A stretch of 64,000 bases of DNA from Acidobacteriota bacterium (GTDB lineage: Bacteria; Acidobacteriota; Terriglobia; Terriglobales; Acidobacteriaceae): positions 124,001 through 188,000 of the forward strand of contig JAJZBZ010000005.1 of NCBI GenBank assembly GCA_021846275.1, read 5' to 3'. The position numbers and the translations under genes are program-made. How positions within the stretch are numbered: position 1 is the first letter of the stretch; each line of letters opens with the position of its first letter. The notes beneath the pieces are model-generated. The model saw only the letters and a program-made list of their open reading frames with translations. It had not been told where the DNA came from and searched no databases. Positions 46,752-51,414 of the stretch are shown in pieces.

Positions 46752-47570
46752 TCAGGAGGCTGCGGCGAGCAGCGCCCGTTGCGCGGCGAAGAGCTGGCGC
46801 AGACCGCCTTCGGCGAGATCGAGAAGCTGGTTGAGTTCGGCGCGCGAGTAGCTGCCTTTTTCCGCCGTGGCCTGGGTTTCGACCAGGCCGCCGTCCTCGG
46901 TCATGACGACGTTCATGTCCACCTCGGCCTGTGCGTCCTCCTCGTAGCAGAGGTCGAGCAGCATCTGGCCGCCGACGCGCCCGACGGAGGTGGCGGCGAT
47001 GAGCTGGCGCATGGGTGAGGCGGGCAGCGTGCCGGAGCCGACCAGCGCCCGGAGCGCAAGCTCCAGCGCAATGGCCGCGCCGGTGACGGCTGCCGTGCGC
47101 GTGCCGCCGTCGGCCTGAAGGACATCGCAGTCGAGGATGACGGTGCGCTCGCCCAGAGCCTTCAGATCGACGGCCCCGCGCAGGCTGCGCCCGATGAGGC
47201 GCTGAATCTCGTGGGTGCGGCCGCTGATTTTGCCGCGTTCACTCTCGCGCGGTGTGCGGGTGACGGTGGCTCGCGGCAGCATGGCGTACTCGGCCGTGAC
47301 CCAGCCGCGGCCCTGATTGCGCAGCCAGCCGGGAACGCCGTTTTCGATGGTGGCGTTGCAGAGGACGCGGGTGTGGCCCAGTTCGATGAGGACCGAGCCT
47401 TCGGCGGTGCGGACGTAGCCGGGAGTCAGGCGCAGCGGGCGCAGCGCGTCGACGGCGCGGCCCTCCGGACGCAGAGTTGCCAGTCTGGTAGGCGGATGGC
47501 TTGAGGTCGGGTTGCCGCTGGCTGCGTCAGCCGGAAGCAGTGGAAAACGGAGGGTGCTTGGCGGATTCAT
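46752..47570 (-). CDS. rph: Ribonuclease PH
   Basis: A 272-residue phosphorolytic 3' exoribonuclease that trims tRNA precursors. Core motifs are [69 protein letters not shown] and [23 protein letters not shown]. The N-terminus is about 30 residues longer than typical, and a later start near [12 protein letters not shown] is possible. An inverted repeat (46698-46706 with 46739-46747) follows the stop and may help terminate transcription. Confidence 0.95.
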
Positions 47571-47758
47571 CCCCTCATTGTACGAGTCATCTCAGGAATC
47601 CGAGTGGAAGCGAAGCACGAGGTTGGTTTTGCGATGGATACAGCCCGAAGCGCATGATCGTTGGCTCTGATTCCGAGGGAGTTGACGGCTTTGGTCCCGA
47701 CTCCGGATATGGGCTTCCCAGTTCGGGAATGGGAATTTTCAGGCGTCAATTCGGGACT

Positions 47759-47788
47759 AATCATTCAAGTTTATATAAATGAATGATT
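47759..47788. repeat. 30-bp AT-rich inverted repeat in the rph / histidine kinase intergenic region
   Basis: AATCATTCA (47759-47767) is exactly inverted at 47780-47788 as TGAATGATT. The spacer contains TTTATATAAA, itself a perfect palindrome. The surrounding 47571-48038 gap has no gene. The site could be an operator, a promoter with TATATAA, or a recombination site; I see no match to the usual XerCD core. Confidence 0.6.
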
Positions 47789-47915
47789 TACGAATTATCA
47801 CCGAGCCTGACTGTTCCGTTTTGGGACGTGGAGTGCCGTTTTTAATTCGATGGAGTTCCCGAAAGGAATCCTCCATGCCCTTTCTGGTCAATCACTTAGA
47901 TTGCTTGTCCAAGTT

Positions 47916-47931
47916 TGGCACAAATCGTGCT
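47916..47931 (+). promoter_or_regulatory. Sigma-54 type -24/-12 promoter of the histidine kinase operon
   Basis: TTGGCACAAATCGTGCT fits YTGGCACGrNNNTTGCW with the invariant GG and GC exactly 12 bp apart. Predicted start about 47942. An imperfect hairpin (AGTGGCA 47964-47970 with TGCCACT 47991-47997) lies in the leader. Confidence 0.55.
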
Positions 47932-48038
47932 CAAGAAGTGTCAGGAACGGGACACATTTTGGAAGTGGCAGCTCGGGAAGTTTCCTGCTGTGCCACTGCC
48001 CGGAGTGGAACCGATTTTGCCACGACGGAGATCAGACC

Positions 48039-49118
48039 ATGCCAGAACAGACCGAAGACCGGGATCGATTTCTCTCTCTTGCTCCGAAGCCGGTGGCGGC
48101 AAGCGCGCCGATGCCGGTGTCAACGAAGCAGCCGCGACAGAAGGCTGTTACTCCATTTCTCATGCTGCCGGATTCCCTGCCCAGCGGGTTGAGCGCCGGG
48201 CAGTCGCCGATGCCGGGATGGCTGCACTGGCTGGAGAGCACAGCCGTGCCTTCCGGGAACTCTGTTCCCGCGGGCAACTCGATTTTTGATCCGGCACCGA
48301 GGGCCTCGACGGAAGAGTCCGGAGAGAATCTGCCGGAGTCAGACGCCGCGCTGCTGCACGACGCGCGCAGCATGGTGACGGCACTCGATCTCTACTGCGA
48401 TCTGTTGGCCGAGCCGGGCGTGCTGCGGGCCGACTTCCAGCACTATGCCGGGGAGCTGAGGCTGATTGCCGCGTCCAGCCGTCGGTTGCTGAGCCAGCTT
48501 GACCGGCATGCGATGACAGAGGCAGGGATGCCAGCTGAGGCCGCTCTGGCTGCGCCGCAGGCGGGACTGGGACCGCGTCTGGTGCCCGCTTCTGCCGCGC
48601 GACAGCCGTTTGCGCTGCGCGAGCCGATGGAGAGTCTGGCCGACGAGCTGATGGCGATGCGCAATCTGCTGGCCGCGCTGGTCGGCCCGGCGATCACTCT
48701 GGGGCTGAGTCTCGATGGCGGCTATCGTGCGATCCGCATGGCCTCCGACGACCTGACGCGGTTGATGGTGAATCTGGTTCGCAACGCCGCCGAAGCGATG
48801 CCGGAGGGTGGCCATATCCAGATCACGCTGCGCGAACTGGCCGACCGGCTGCGTCTGACAGTGACCGACAGCGGCTGCGGACTGCCGGAGGGCGACTGCG
48901 AGGCCGTCTTTGCGCCGGGCTTCACGACCCATCTTGATCTGCAGGGTGGCTCGGAAGAGAGCACGCACCGCGGGATGGGACTGGCGATTGTGCGCTCGCT
49001 GGTCACCTCTGCTGGAGGCAGCATACGGGCGGCGAATCGCCCGGCTGCGCTGGCCGATGCCGACGAAGAAGCCTCAACCGGGGCGGTCTTCGAGATGGAG
49101 TTTCCCCTGGCTGAATGA
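48039..49118 (+). CDS. Soluble NtrB-like sensor histidine kinase
   Basis: A 359-residue protein with no membrane segment and no recognised PAS/GAF domain; the first 100 residues are Pro/Ser-rich. The phosphoacceptor H107 lies in LLHDARSMVTALDLY, a variant of the HDLRNP box. The catalytic ATPase domain has the N box VNLVRNAAEAMPEGG, G1 DSGCGLP and G2 HRGMGLAIVRSLV. The start at 48039 follows GGAG. It is followed by a sigma-54 activator gene, its likely partner, and what it senses is unknown. Confidence 0.9.
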   Translation: MPEQTEDRDRFLSLAPKPVAASAPMPVSTKQPRQKAVTPFLMLPDSLPSGLSAGQSPMPGWLHWLESTAVPSGNSVPAGNSIFDPAPRASTEESGENLPESDAALLHDARSMVTALDLYCDLLAEPGVLRADFQHYAGELRLIAASSRRLLSQLDRHAMTEAGMPAEAALAAPQAGLGPRLVPASAARQPFALREPMESLADELMAMRNLLAALVGPAITLGLSLDGGYRAIRMASDDLTRLMVNLVRNAAEAMPEGGHIQITLRELADRLRLTVTDSGCGLPEGDCEAVFAPGFTTHLDLQGGSEESTHRGMGLAIVRSLVTSAGGSIRAANRPAALADADEEASTGAVFEMEFPLAE

Positions 49119-49249: not shown

Positions 49250-50800
49250 ATGATTCCTGTAACTGCTTCTTCGTCCATGAGTTACTCGCCCATTCTGCCG
49301 AATGCGCTCCCGACCCTGCGTCCCACGCCGGCAGACGGGGCACGCAAACCCATCCGACAGGCAATTCTCCAGAATCCTCAGATCGCAGCTGCACCTGTCG
49401 CCGAACCGGCGCGGCTTCGCCTGCTGGTGGTCGAGATTGACCCGGCGATGCGCTCGGCATGTCAGGAGATTGCAACCACGCTGGGCTACCAGGTGGAGAC
49501 AACCGGAGACTCGACGCAGGCCCGCAAGCTTCTCGAGGCGCGTTCGGCAGACATCGCTCTGGTGAACCTGCCGACTACCGGCGGCGCGGCGTTGGACTGG
49601 ATTGCTGAAACCCATCTGCTCCATCCTGAGATCGCGCTGATTGGCATGACCAGCTCCGGTTCTGTGCATCTGGCTGTCGAGGCGATGCGGCGCGGAGCCT
49701 CCGACTACCTGACCAAGCCATTCACGGTGGATGAACTTTCCGCTGTGCTGGCGCGGGCGGCCGAAAGCGTGACGGTGGATCGTGAGAGCCGTCGGCTGCG
49801 CGATCAGCTTCGATCGAGCCAGGGGCTCGGCGCCATCATCGGGCGATCCGCCGAGATGGAAAAGCTCTATCGCATCCTCTCCAAGGTGGCGCAGAGCACG
49901 CATCCGGTGCTGATCCTGGGCGAAAGCGGCACGGGCAAAGAGCTGGTGGCGCGGACGATCCACGCCTACGGTCCGAGTGCGGCCAAGCCTTTCCTGCCGG
50001 TCGATTGCGGATCGCTCGTGCCGACGCTGATCGAAAGCGAACTGTTCGGCTACGTCAAGGGCGCGTTCACGGGCGCGAACCGCTCCAAGGACGGGCTGTT
50101 TGTCTCCGCCGAGGGCGGAACGGTCTTTCTGGACGAGGTGGGCGAGCTGACGCTTGACCTGCAGGCGAAGCTTCTGCGCGCGTTGCAGGAGAAAGAGGTT
50201 CGTCCCGTTGGCGCGACGCATCGCGTGCCGATCCGGGCGCGCATCATCGCTGCGACCAACCGAGATCTGGCGGCGATGGTCGAGCGCGGCACCTTTCGCA
50301 AGGATCTCTTCTATCGCCTGAACGTGGTGAACCTGCGCATGCCCACGCTGCGGGATCGCCGCGAGGATATTCCGCTGCTGGCGGCGCACTTCCTGGAGCG
50401 CATGGCGAAGTCGCACGGGCAGCGCTACACGCTGAACGACGAGGCGCTGCGCACGATGATGCAGCATGACTGGCCGGGGAATATCCGCGAGCTGGAGCAT
50501 GCCATCGAGCGCGCCTGCGCACTGTCTTCCGGGCCAGTCTTGCAACTGGGTGACCTGCCCACGCAGCTCCAGCAGCAGGGCATCGAGGCGCATCGTACGC
50601 CGCAGCCGGGCGTGGCCACTGACCAGGCTGCGACCAACGACGTGAAGCCGCTGGCCGATATGGAGCGCGATGCGATTCTGAACGCGATCCGCACGCTGGG
50701 CGGGGACAAGCTGCTGGCCGCGCGCCTGCTGGGCATCGGCAAAACCACCCTCTATCGCAAGCTCAAGGAGTACGGGATCGGCGATCCGCTGCAGGAGTAG
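49250..50800 (+). CDS. NtrC-family sigma-54 activator with degenerate receiver domain
   Basis: A 516-residue enhancer-binding protein with three domains. Residues about 55-170 form a receiver-like domain, but the phosphoacceptor aspartate is replaced by N106 (LVNLPTTGG for L.D..MP..G) and the acidic pair is altered to E62/D64; T134 and K156 are kept. The AAA+ domain has Walker A GESGTGKE at 224-231, the sigma-54 contact GAFTGA at 271-276, Walker B FLDEVGEL and SYRLNV-like FYRLNVVNLRMP. The Fis-type HTH is AARLLGIGKTTLYRKLKEYGI. Output should be intact while classical phosphorylation is doubtful. It may regulate its own operon through the TTCGGGAA sites. Confidence 0.93.
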   Translation: MIPVTASSSMSYSPILPNALPTLRPTPADGARKPIRQAILQNPQIAAAPVAEPARLRLLVVEIDPAMRSACQEIATTLGYQVETTGDSTQARKLLEARSADIALVNLPTTGGAALDWIAETHLLHPEIALIGMTSSGSVHLAVEAMRRGASDYLTKPFTVDELSAVLARAAESVTVDRESRRLRDQLRSSQGLGAIIGRSAEMEKLYRILSKVAQSTHPVLILGESGTGKELVARTIHAYGPSAAKPFLPVDCGSLVPTLIESELFGYVKGAFTGANRSKDGLFVSAEGGTVFLDEVGELTLDLQAKLLRALQEKEVRPVGATHRVPIRARIIAATNRDLAAMVERGTFRKDLFYRLNVVNLRMPTLRDRREDIPLLAAHFLERMAKSHGQRYTLNDEALRTMMQHDWPGNIRELEHAIERACALSSGPVLQLGDLPTQLQQQGIEAHRTPQPGVATDQAATNDVKPLADMERDAILNAIRTLGGDKLLAARLLGIGKTTLYRKLKEYGIGDPLQE

Positions 50801-50913
50801 CGCTGCCCGAGGGCAGACGCTTCTTCGCAACGATGGCTTCCCGTACACACCCGGTTCCCGGCCTCTCGGCCGCGCGCCGCTCAGCCGCCCCAATGCGGGC
50901 AAGGAGAAATCTC

Positions 50914-51414
50914 ATGAAAGCACTTCTGGTGACAGGGATGGAAGGCGCAGTCAACTGCGCGCAGGCTTTGCAGGCCATGCTCGGCATGGAGATCGAGGTG
51001 GCCGCCGGTCGCCGCGCGGCGATCAGCTCGCTGCGCAAACAGGAGTTCGACCTGGTGGTGGTGGATGACTCGCTGGCCGATGCCGATCCTGCAGGCACCG
51101 ACCCGCTGTGGGAGGCGATTGGCATGGCGCAGCCGGTGACGGTGAACTTCGTGCTCAGCGGCACCGAGCGCGTGGCGCGCGAGATTCGCGCGGCGTTGCG
51201 CAGGCGAGAGCGCGAGCAGGAGCTGGCGCGACGTGCGGCGACGGCGGCGCTCGAAACGGAGCTGAAATCAACGGTGGCCGGTCTGCTGCTGCACTCGCAA
51301 CTGGCGCTGGCTGCTGAGCCGCTGCCGGAGCCGGTCGCGGGCAAGCTCCGGCTGGTGGCCGATCTCGTGGGCACGCTGCGCGATCAGCTTTCCTCGAATG
51401 TGGTCGCGCACTGA
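50914..51414 (+). CDS. Receiver-like protein of unknown function
   Basis: A 166-residue protein; AAGGAG lies eight bases before the ATG at 50914. The first 110 residues follow receiver-domain topology: KALLVTGMEGAV..ALQAMLGMEIEVA, FDLVVVDDSLADAD with D51/D52 at the phosphoacceptor position, and VNFVLSGTERVAREIRAAL. The N-terminal acidic pair is missing. A helical C-terminal extension (RRREREQELARRAATAALETELKSTVAGLLLHSQLAL) follows and resembles a truncated histidine-phosphotransfer or kinase-dimerisation helix. It closes the kinase-activator operon and may be the real or competing phosphoryl target. Confidence 0.65.
   Translation: MKALLVTGMEGAVNCAQALQAMLGMEIEVAAGRRAAISSLRKQEFDLVVVDDSLADADPAGTDPLWEAIGMAQPVTVNFVLSGTERVAREIRAALRRREREQELARRAATAALETELKSTVAGLLLHSQLALAAEPLPEPVAGKLRLVADLVGTLRDQLSSNVVAH

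Follow-up and report, generated by a model that had tools for sequence, protein, structure and literature searches.

A candidate autogenously controlled sigma-54-type promoter upstream of a kinase-regulator operon in Acidobacteriota

NtrC-family activators such as NtrC1, DctD, FleR and NtrC join a receiver (REC) to an AAA+ domain bearing the GAFTGA motif and to a Fis-type HTH, and they come with upstream dyads, a -24/-12 promoter and an adjacent kinase. Upstream dyads with an IHF site before the promoter are the usual layout for a sigma-54 activator. The operon that we describe here lies in a 64 kb stretch of DNA, analysed as a whole (the window), from positions 124001-188000 of C7 in a 3.34 Mb genome; among named records, the nearest regulators are those of Acidobacteriaceae such as Terracidiphilus. 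It shares with the systems above the domain order, the GAFTGA motif, the dyads, the form of the promoter and the neighbouring kinase, and the receiver of its regulator aligns with those of NtrC1 (1zy2), DctD and FleR. Unlike in NtrC-family activators, the phosphosite of the regulator is occupied by Asn and one residue of its acidic pocket is gone, and to our knowledge its dyad differs from the known sites of the family.

A receiver that is still recognised as such and lacks key phosphotransfer residues is a pseudo-receiver; FleQ, ChxR, HP1043 and Rem are proteins of this kind with an intact output domain (reviewed in PMC12632262). Our regulator resembles them, with two differences: the operon holds a kinase whose His is kept, and the exchange of Asp for Asn can be located on a tree in which otherwise similar regulators keep the Asp. 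For Desulfovibrio EBPs predicted from comparative genomics to be autoregulated, the one-component section of PMC4641369 takes a conserved inverted repeat upstream of the orthologues of a regulator as its own site (yGTCA-N6-TGACr for DVU2894); a conserved inverted repeat is likewise found here upstream of regulator orthologues, although the repeat is another one and the phylum too. In Caulobacter, according to an excerpt of PMC10274813, the NtrC of the NtrBC pair also controls its own operon, there negatively and in connection with a nitrogen signal; the excerpt mentions no half-site overlapping a -24 box. None of the papers listed in our literature searches deals with the present regulator or its dyad in Acidobacteriota.

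From the sequence comparisons that follow, we consider it very likely that 47571-48038 is an autogenously controlled sigma-54 promoter of the kinase-regulator-orf3 operon, read by the operon's own NtrC-type regulator. This regulator occurs across Terriglobia, and the dyad would provide it with a DNA target open to experiment, in a setting where a pseudo-receiver is paired with an apparently intact kinase.

The operon and the lost phosphosite

The intergenic region (47571-48038, 468 bp) separates rph (RNase PH; 46752-47570, minus strand) from the operon on the plus strand. The operon opens with a histidine kinase gene (48039-49118), whose product has a HATPase_c domain and His107 in an HDAR motif, with no sensor domain recognised. 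Then come the NtrC-type regulator (49250-50800; REC-AAA+-HTH_8) and Orf3 (50833-51414), a protein with no Pfam match of its own that combines a receiver-like N-terminus with a HisKA-like C-terminus lacking the His. A search for related loci returned 80, and intergenics were taken from the 24 in which rph diverges from the operon. On the rph side, TACAAT (minus strand, 47577-47582) lies 7 bp before the start codon and ATTGTA is present in 16/24 orthologous intergenics, so that rph may be leaderless or nearly so. On the other side, the kinase leader of some orthologues (L017 and L068) contains short AGGGACTA/AGGGAACA-like repeats.

The regulator has the marks of an NtrC-family sigma-54 activator: an AAA+ domain with an intact GAFTGA (PF00158, Sigma54_activat, 5.5e-66), a C-terminal Fis-type HTH (PF02954, 2.9e-11), one RpoN gene in the same genome (Sigma54_DBD match) and a -24/-12 promoter. 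Its receiver is also recognised (PF00072, 3.6e-14), with key phosphotransfer residues lost, as in a pseudo-receiver. Asn106 takes the place of a phosphorylatable Asp, since it aligns with the Asp of NtrC1 that we take to be the phosphosite, and Ile occupies position 63, which presumably belongs to the acidic pocket. With 374.2 bits against a cut-off of 558.6, the protein is not an NR(I)/NtrC equivalog (TIGR01818), and it falls below the cut-off of each of 25 NCBIfam families among the matches listed (25 of 81).

The residue at the phosphosite was compared in 81 regulators, where it is N in 29, D in 48, E in 2, and H and G in 1 each. In a quick tree of these sequences, a supported group of 31 rows comprises the N rows (29), the H row (1) and a single D (L034, on a long branch), and D is found in 48 of the 51 rows that carry neither N nor H. 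Position 63 divides in a similar way: it is non-acidic in 29/29 clade members, as in the window, and D or E in 48 of the 49 others that were scored. The replacement of Asp by Asn seems to have become fixed a single time, in a clade of some 30 sequences. Because both the Asp of the phosphosite and a residue of the acid pocket are gone, Asp phosphorylation is unlikely to be the switch in this clade. Other parts of the machinery are retained: the T, the K, the GAFTGA Phe, the Walker A Lys and the Walker B Asp are kept in 29/29 clade members, and the kinases of the clade have the His wherever the match covers the site (it does not do so in L189, L195 and L232, and L024 and L025 gave no kinase match).

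Orf3 is co-conserved in Terriglobia close to the window; the Asp of its receiver-like part is kept in close homologues, and its HisKA-like tail is without the His in the window's group. In loci of Acidiferrales type (L060:10518-11210 and L067:10700-11368), an Orf3-like protein has a HisKA match that does include the His (RHE-NNPL). That Orf3 takes a phosphoryl group is speculation on our part. A relative assembled in one contig (G031) has two copies of the regulator (C1:290237 and C1:2959829), the second of which bears a Gly at the phosphosite (L200).

A 15-bp dyad and its likely reader

The original prediction had pointed to five close copies of an octamer, TTCGGGAA, between 47695 and 47979, far more than expected by chance, as candidate sites of the operon's own activator. 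The exact octamer (47722-47729, plus strand) and its exact reverse complement (47856-47863) are present as claimed. With the one-mismatch copies TTCGGGAC (at 47750) and CTCGGGAA (at 47972) they make four places with at most one mismatch, a number that no 285-bp stretch of the window exceeds, but the sole candidate for a fifth, GTCCCGAC (47694-47701), differs at two positions. Across the 64 kb there are 57 such places. Had TTCGGGAA been fixed in advance, the four would compare with 0.76 expected in the intergenic (P(≥4) = 0.006 in 3000 Markov resamples); when the best 8-mer of each resampled intergenic is taken instead, at least 4 copies are reached in 283/300 runs and at least 5 in 116/300. 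Since the octamer was chosen post hoc, its excess is not beyond chance from the window alone, and the motif draws its support from conservation in orthologues, not from the count of copies.

Among the words enriched in the 24 orthologous intergenics were TTTGGCAC, CGTGTA and CGGGAAT, and their contexts revealed a 15-bp dyad, [GT]T[CT]CC-N5-GG[GA]A[CA]. The octamer is the right half of this dyad plus its spacer, and was therefore rejected as the binding unit. Spacers from 0 to 14 were scanned. With a spacer of 5, dyads agreeing at 9 or more of the 10 positions number 82 against 11.3 expected in Markov-resampled sequence, and occur in 24/24 intergenics, while perfect dyads number 20 against 0.7 and occur in 15 loci. 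Spacers of 4 and 6 are raised as well (41 and 48 at ≥9/10; 0 and 13 at 10/10), partly because the same sites are counted again in overlapping registers. A PWM trained on the 24 loci, the window excluded, has its best scores in the 64 kb at 47811 (18.2), 47713 (16.9), 40849 (11.9) and 47719 (11.4). We then took 20 further upstream stretches from relatives (leaving out L242, which has neither kinase nor rph, and replacing one from G002 that was too short); the best score is at least 12.6 in 19/19 examined intergenics outside the training set.

Measured from the GG of the -24 element, the distal dyad of the window (TTCCCAGTTCGGGAA, 47715-47729, PWM 16.9) is centred at -195 and holds the octamer copy at 47722. 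The proximal dyad (GTTCCGTTTTGGGAC, 47813-47827, PWM 18.2), centred at -97, is the strongest of the window and had been missed, for it lies outside the predicted copies. The middle dyad, in the -167 register, is degenerate, with TTCGGGAC (47750-47757, plus strand) as its right half. The reverse-complement copy belongs to a weak dyad (GTTCCCGAAAGGAAT, 47855-47869, 9/10 consensus positions) centred at -55, a register in which a PWM match of at least 10 occurs only in L226. Another weak dyad (GTCCCGACTCCGGAT, 47694-47708, 8/10 consensus positions), probably the first of the predicted copies, is centred at about -216; single dyads are found at -218 to -222 in 4/43 promoters. The last copy, CTCGGGAA (47972-47979, plus strand), has 8/10 dyad positions at 47965-47979. 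The five copies do not deserve equal weight, one being part of a strong dyad, one a degenerate half-site in register, and three weak or unplaced; the copy at 47972 lies downstream of the -24/-12 promoter, which is real in form.

Anchoring on the -24 GG succeeded for 43 promoters of 44 (L240 was dropped), and L041, L056 and L241, which look mis-anchored, are nonetheless included in the counts over the 43. A dyad lies at -97±2 in 32/43 promoters, at -195±3 in 30/43 and at -167±2 in 18/43, the window itself not being among the last. These three bins cover 17 of 290 bp and contain 80 of the 105 dyads with a PWM score of at least 10, where 6.2 would be expected if they were uniform, although dyad positions are not independent draws because orthologous promoters share descent, and the relatives compared may count one species twice. 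Aligning the window with six members of its genus gave a footprint in which identity is 0.87 at the distal dyad, 0.77 at the proximal dyad, 0.67 at the middle half-site, 0.76 at an IHF-like site, 0.92 at a GTYC element and 0.81 at the -24/-12 box (see below), against 0.28-0.54 in the stretches between sites.

The dyads also follow the regulator. Among the 80 loci, less 5 with under 400 bp upstream, a match of at least 12 lies upstream of the regulator in 23/23 loci at identities of at least 60%, 23/29 at 47-60% and 1/23 at 44% or less, the first group and 4/29 of the second overlapping the training set; without those four, the second group still gives 19/25. The background at this threshold, 0.045 per kb, would alone match roughly one locus in seven. 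At a score of at least 16, matches number 15, 12 and 0 (23 loci) in the same groups, and their rate is 0.325 per kb and 0.164 per kb in the first two, compared to 0.002 per kb elsewhere in the loci. Both dyad-bearing groups share the recognition helix region, LGIGKTTLYRKLK, except for L047 and L070 (L023 is cut by a contig end), and it differs in the 13 of the 23 distant regulators that had an HTH match among those listed. Across Terriglobia, dyads accompany the regulator and its HTH whatever the neighbours, whether the locus is linked to rph or not and whether the kinase lies upstream or downstream. The protein that binds the dyads is thus probably this regulator.

Other readings of the sites fit these data less well. 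That we are looking at a chance cluster of a common octamer, as the post hoc resampling would allow, is scarcely credible once the dyad is found conserved in orthologues; chance is contradicted for the two strong dyads, and might account for three of the copies, those at 47694, 47856 and 47972. The sites do sit in an intergenic shared with rph, which adjoins the operon in most closer orthologues, and might serve that divergent gene; the positions of the dyads are fixed relative to the -24 box of the kinase, however, and dyads are also present at regulator loci without an rph match, which makes this very improbable. The dyads could also belong to another DNA-binding protein encoded elsewhere, with the genes controlled by the operon's own regulator lying outside the operon. 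This reading can claim in its favour that a second target of the regulator has not been established, but we deem it unlikely, given that the dyads track the regulator across loci with different neighbours and that the recognition helix region does not vary among dyad-bearing loci, whereas it does differ in those distant regulators for which it was seen. The core of the original prediction, sites for the operon's own activator, is well supported by fixed positions, footprint and co-occurrence with the regulator, though with the dyad and not the octamer as the unit, and the expectation that the motif would recur upstream of orthologues was borne out.

The promoter and its half-sites

The sigma-54-type promoter of the operon is TGGCACAAATCGTGCT (47916-47931, plus strand), of the form GG-N10-GC. 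The most enriched 8-mer of the orthologous intergenics, TTTGGCAC, is found in 19/24 loci. We aligned 41 promoters, the window among them, of which two are probably mis-anchored. They hardly vary in the -24 part, but the G of the -12 element is followed by T in 18, by C in 16 and by A in 7, so that many orthologues depart from GC and this element can be called relaxed.

Between the dyads and this box lies an IHF-like site (47886-47898, plus strand), with two mismatches in the window to WATCARNNNNTTR, which we take to be the IHF consensus. At -31 to -19, WATCARNNNNTTR is exact in 17/43 promoters and present with at most one mismatch in 24/43, against a mean of 0.1% at other offsets. Three DNABII proteins are encoded in the genome, each below the IHF cut-offs, the best reaching 113.6 of 115 bits. 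IHF may have a role at the promoter.

Immediately upstream of the -24 box and making use of it, the half-site GTYC (47907-47910) forms part of GTCC-N6-GGCAC (47907-47921), a candidate operator for self-repression: the GGCAC of the -24 box completes the pattern GTYC[C]-N5-GGCAC. GTYC is present at -10 to -7 in 34/43 operon promoters, three of the nine without it being probably mis-anchored, and in 0/13 further TTTGGCAC-N5-TTGCW sites found in this genome and in relatives (Fisher 2.6e-7, shared descent ignored). GTYC as a general feature of -24 elements was rejected on the latter count. Of the same 13 sigma-54-like sites, one (L258, 13.0) has a dyad scoring at least 12 within 350 bp upstream. 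This arrangement suggests to us that the regulator could bind over the promoter of its own operon at the -24 box; if so, an activator would have an elegant way of limiting itself. The composite GTYC-N3-TTTGGCAC-N5-GTG was found in 12/61 genomes, in 10 of them directly upstream of the operon; it is missing in the other 49, several of the genus included, because the pattern allows no variation. At the predicted transcription start there is a further conserved half-site, in TGTCAGGAACGGGAC (47939-47953, plus strand), whose CGGGAC is found in 7/7 aligned genus sequences, with nearly the same conservation in the flanks.

Mode of control and reach of the regulon

In the mechanism that we favour, the regulator would bind as a dimer, through its Fis-type HTH, to the dyads, whose half-sites are separated by roughly one turn of the helix. 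Upstream activation would be the task of the dyads at -195 and -97, together with the degenerate dyad at -167, and bending at the IHF-like site that separates them from the -24/-12 box would bring the AAA+ ring within reach of RNA polymerase-sigma-54. The outcome would presumably be activation rather than repression, until abundant regulator, using GTYC and the -24 GGCAC, covered the promoter and limited its own synthesis. Since Asp phosphorylation is an improbable switch for a pseudo-receiver, what governs the activity of the regulator is probably how much of it there is, together with this feedback and with contacts to the kinase or Orf3.

The regulator might instead be mainly an autorepressor, the dyads, GTYC-GGCAC and the start-site half-site making up a repression complex, and another sigma-54 activator doing the activating. 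The Asn form could be inactive or just repress, and a pseudo-receiver may keep the AAA+ ring locked off; GTYC adjoins the -24 box in 34/43 operon promoters and in none of the 13 elsewhere, and CGGGAC is conserved at the start site. In the more distant orthologues L039, L042 and L044, a strong dyad is flanked by a TATAGTG box on one side and by the start of the kinase on the other, a repression-like geometry, and no TTGGCAC box was found near it; because dyads without a nearby TTGGCAC box occur in several loci of the 47-60% group, activation is not the sole mode in the family. The NtrC of Caulobacter also represses its own operon, according to the excerpt cited above (PMC10274813). What makes autorepression doubtful as the main mode, although a real possibility, is that dyads at -97, -167 and -195 with an intervening IHF-like site have the usual layout of activator sites, and that the GAFTGA Phe and the Walker residues are kept in 29/29 clade members.

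Returning to autogenous activation, we advance only tentatively, as something that may well prove wrong, a reading for the clade of Terracidiphilus and its relatives as a whole: Asp phosphorylation would have been lost once, the kinase, the AAA+ motor, the DNA sites and the sigma-54 promoter kept, and control moved to protein amount and contact. The dyads would then raise transcription and the -24 half-site cap it, and the kinase or Orf3 would hold or release the regulator without phosphotransfer to it. If this were true, the living relatives with the Asp form would offer a before-and-after pair for the Asn-form clade; because both forms share the dyads, a single reporter promoter would suffice to measure what the loss of phosphorylation does.

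The dyad was also counted genome-wide. The genome of the window holds 43 dyads against 19 for a reversed-pattern control, and 15 genomes of the genus, with a stricter pattern and among the matches listed, hold 172 against 130. With dyads just modestly above the reversed control, no large regulon is evident, and autoregulation is the sole well-supported target. Of the 41 dyads outside the window, 40 score no higher than 12.5 or fall within an open frame of 199 aa or more. The exception (L099:1001-1033, on C5 of the genome) combines a dyad of 16.9 with TTGGCAC between flagellin and flbD-motA. With the loci oriented, a dyad of at least 12 was found at the flbD-motA place in 3/29 relatives, the other 26 scoring below 10: L155 and L156, a closely related pair, have one of 12.9 at -74, near the -69 of the window's genome, and L162 has one of 12.1, twice. 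The TTGGCA box is present at this place only in L172 and L173 of the 29, and orthologues of the regulator also occur in genomes without motA. A flagellar second target is at most weakly suggested by these data.

In one relative (G020), a composite sigma-54-like promoter (L222) lies directly upstream of a gene for a PEP-CTERM surface protein, with no dyad match of at least 8 besides the composite itself. Control of PEP-CTERM proteins as the identity of the regulator was rejected, for want of another dyad at L222 and because the regulator reaches 336.9 bits against the PrsR cut-off of 502.6 (TIGR02915), which no gene of the window's genome passes. The other stray composite, at L221, falls inside a coding frame. 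In four relatives, the sigma-54-like promoters of L255, L259, L261 and L262 precede short proteins with similar signal-peptide-like starts, and are perhaps one conserved sigma-54 target of another activator.
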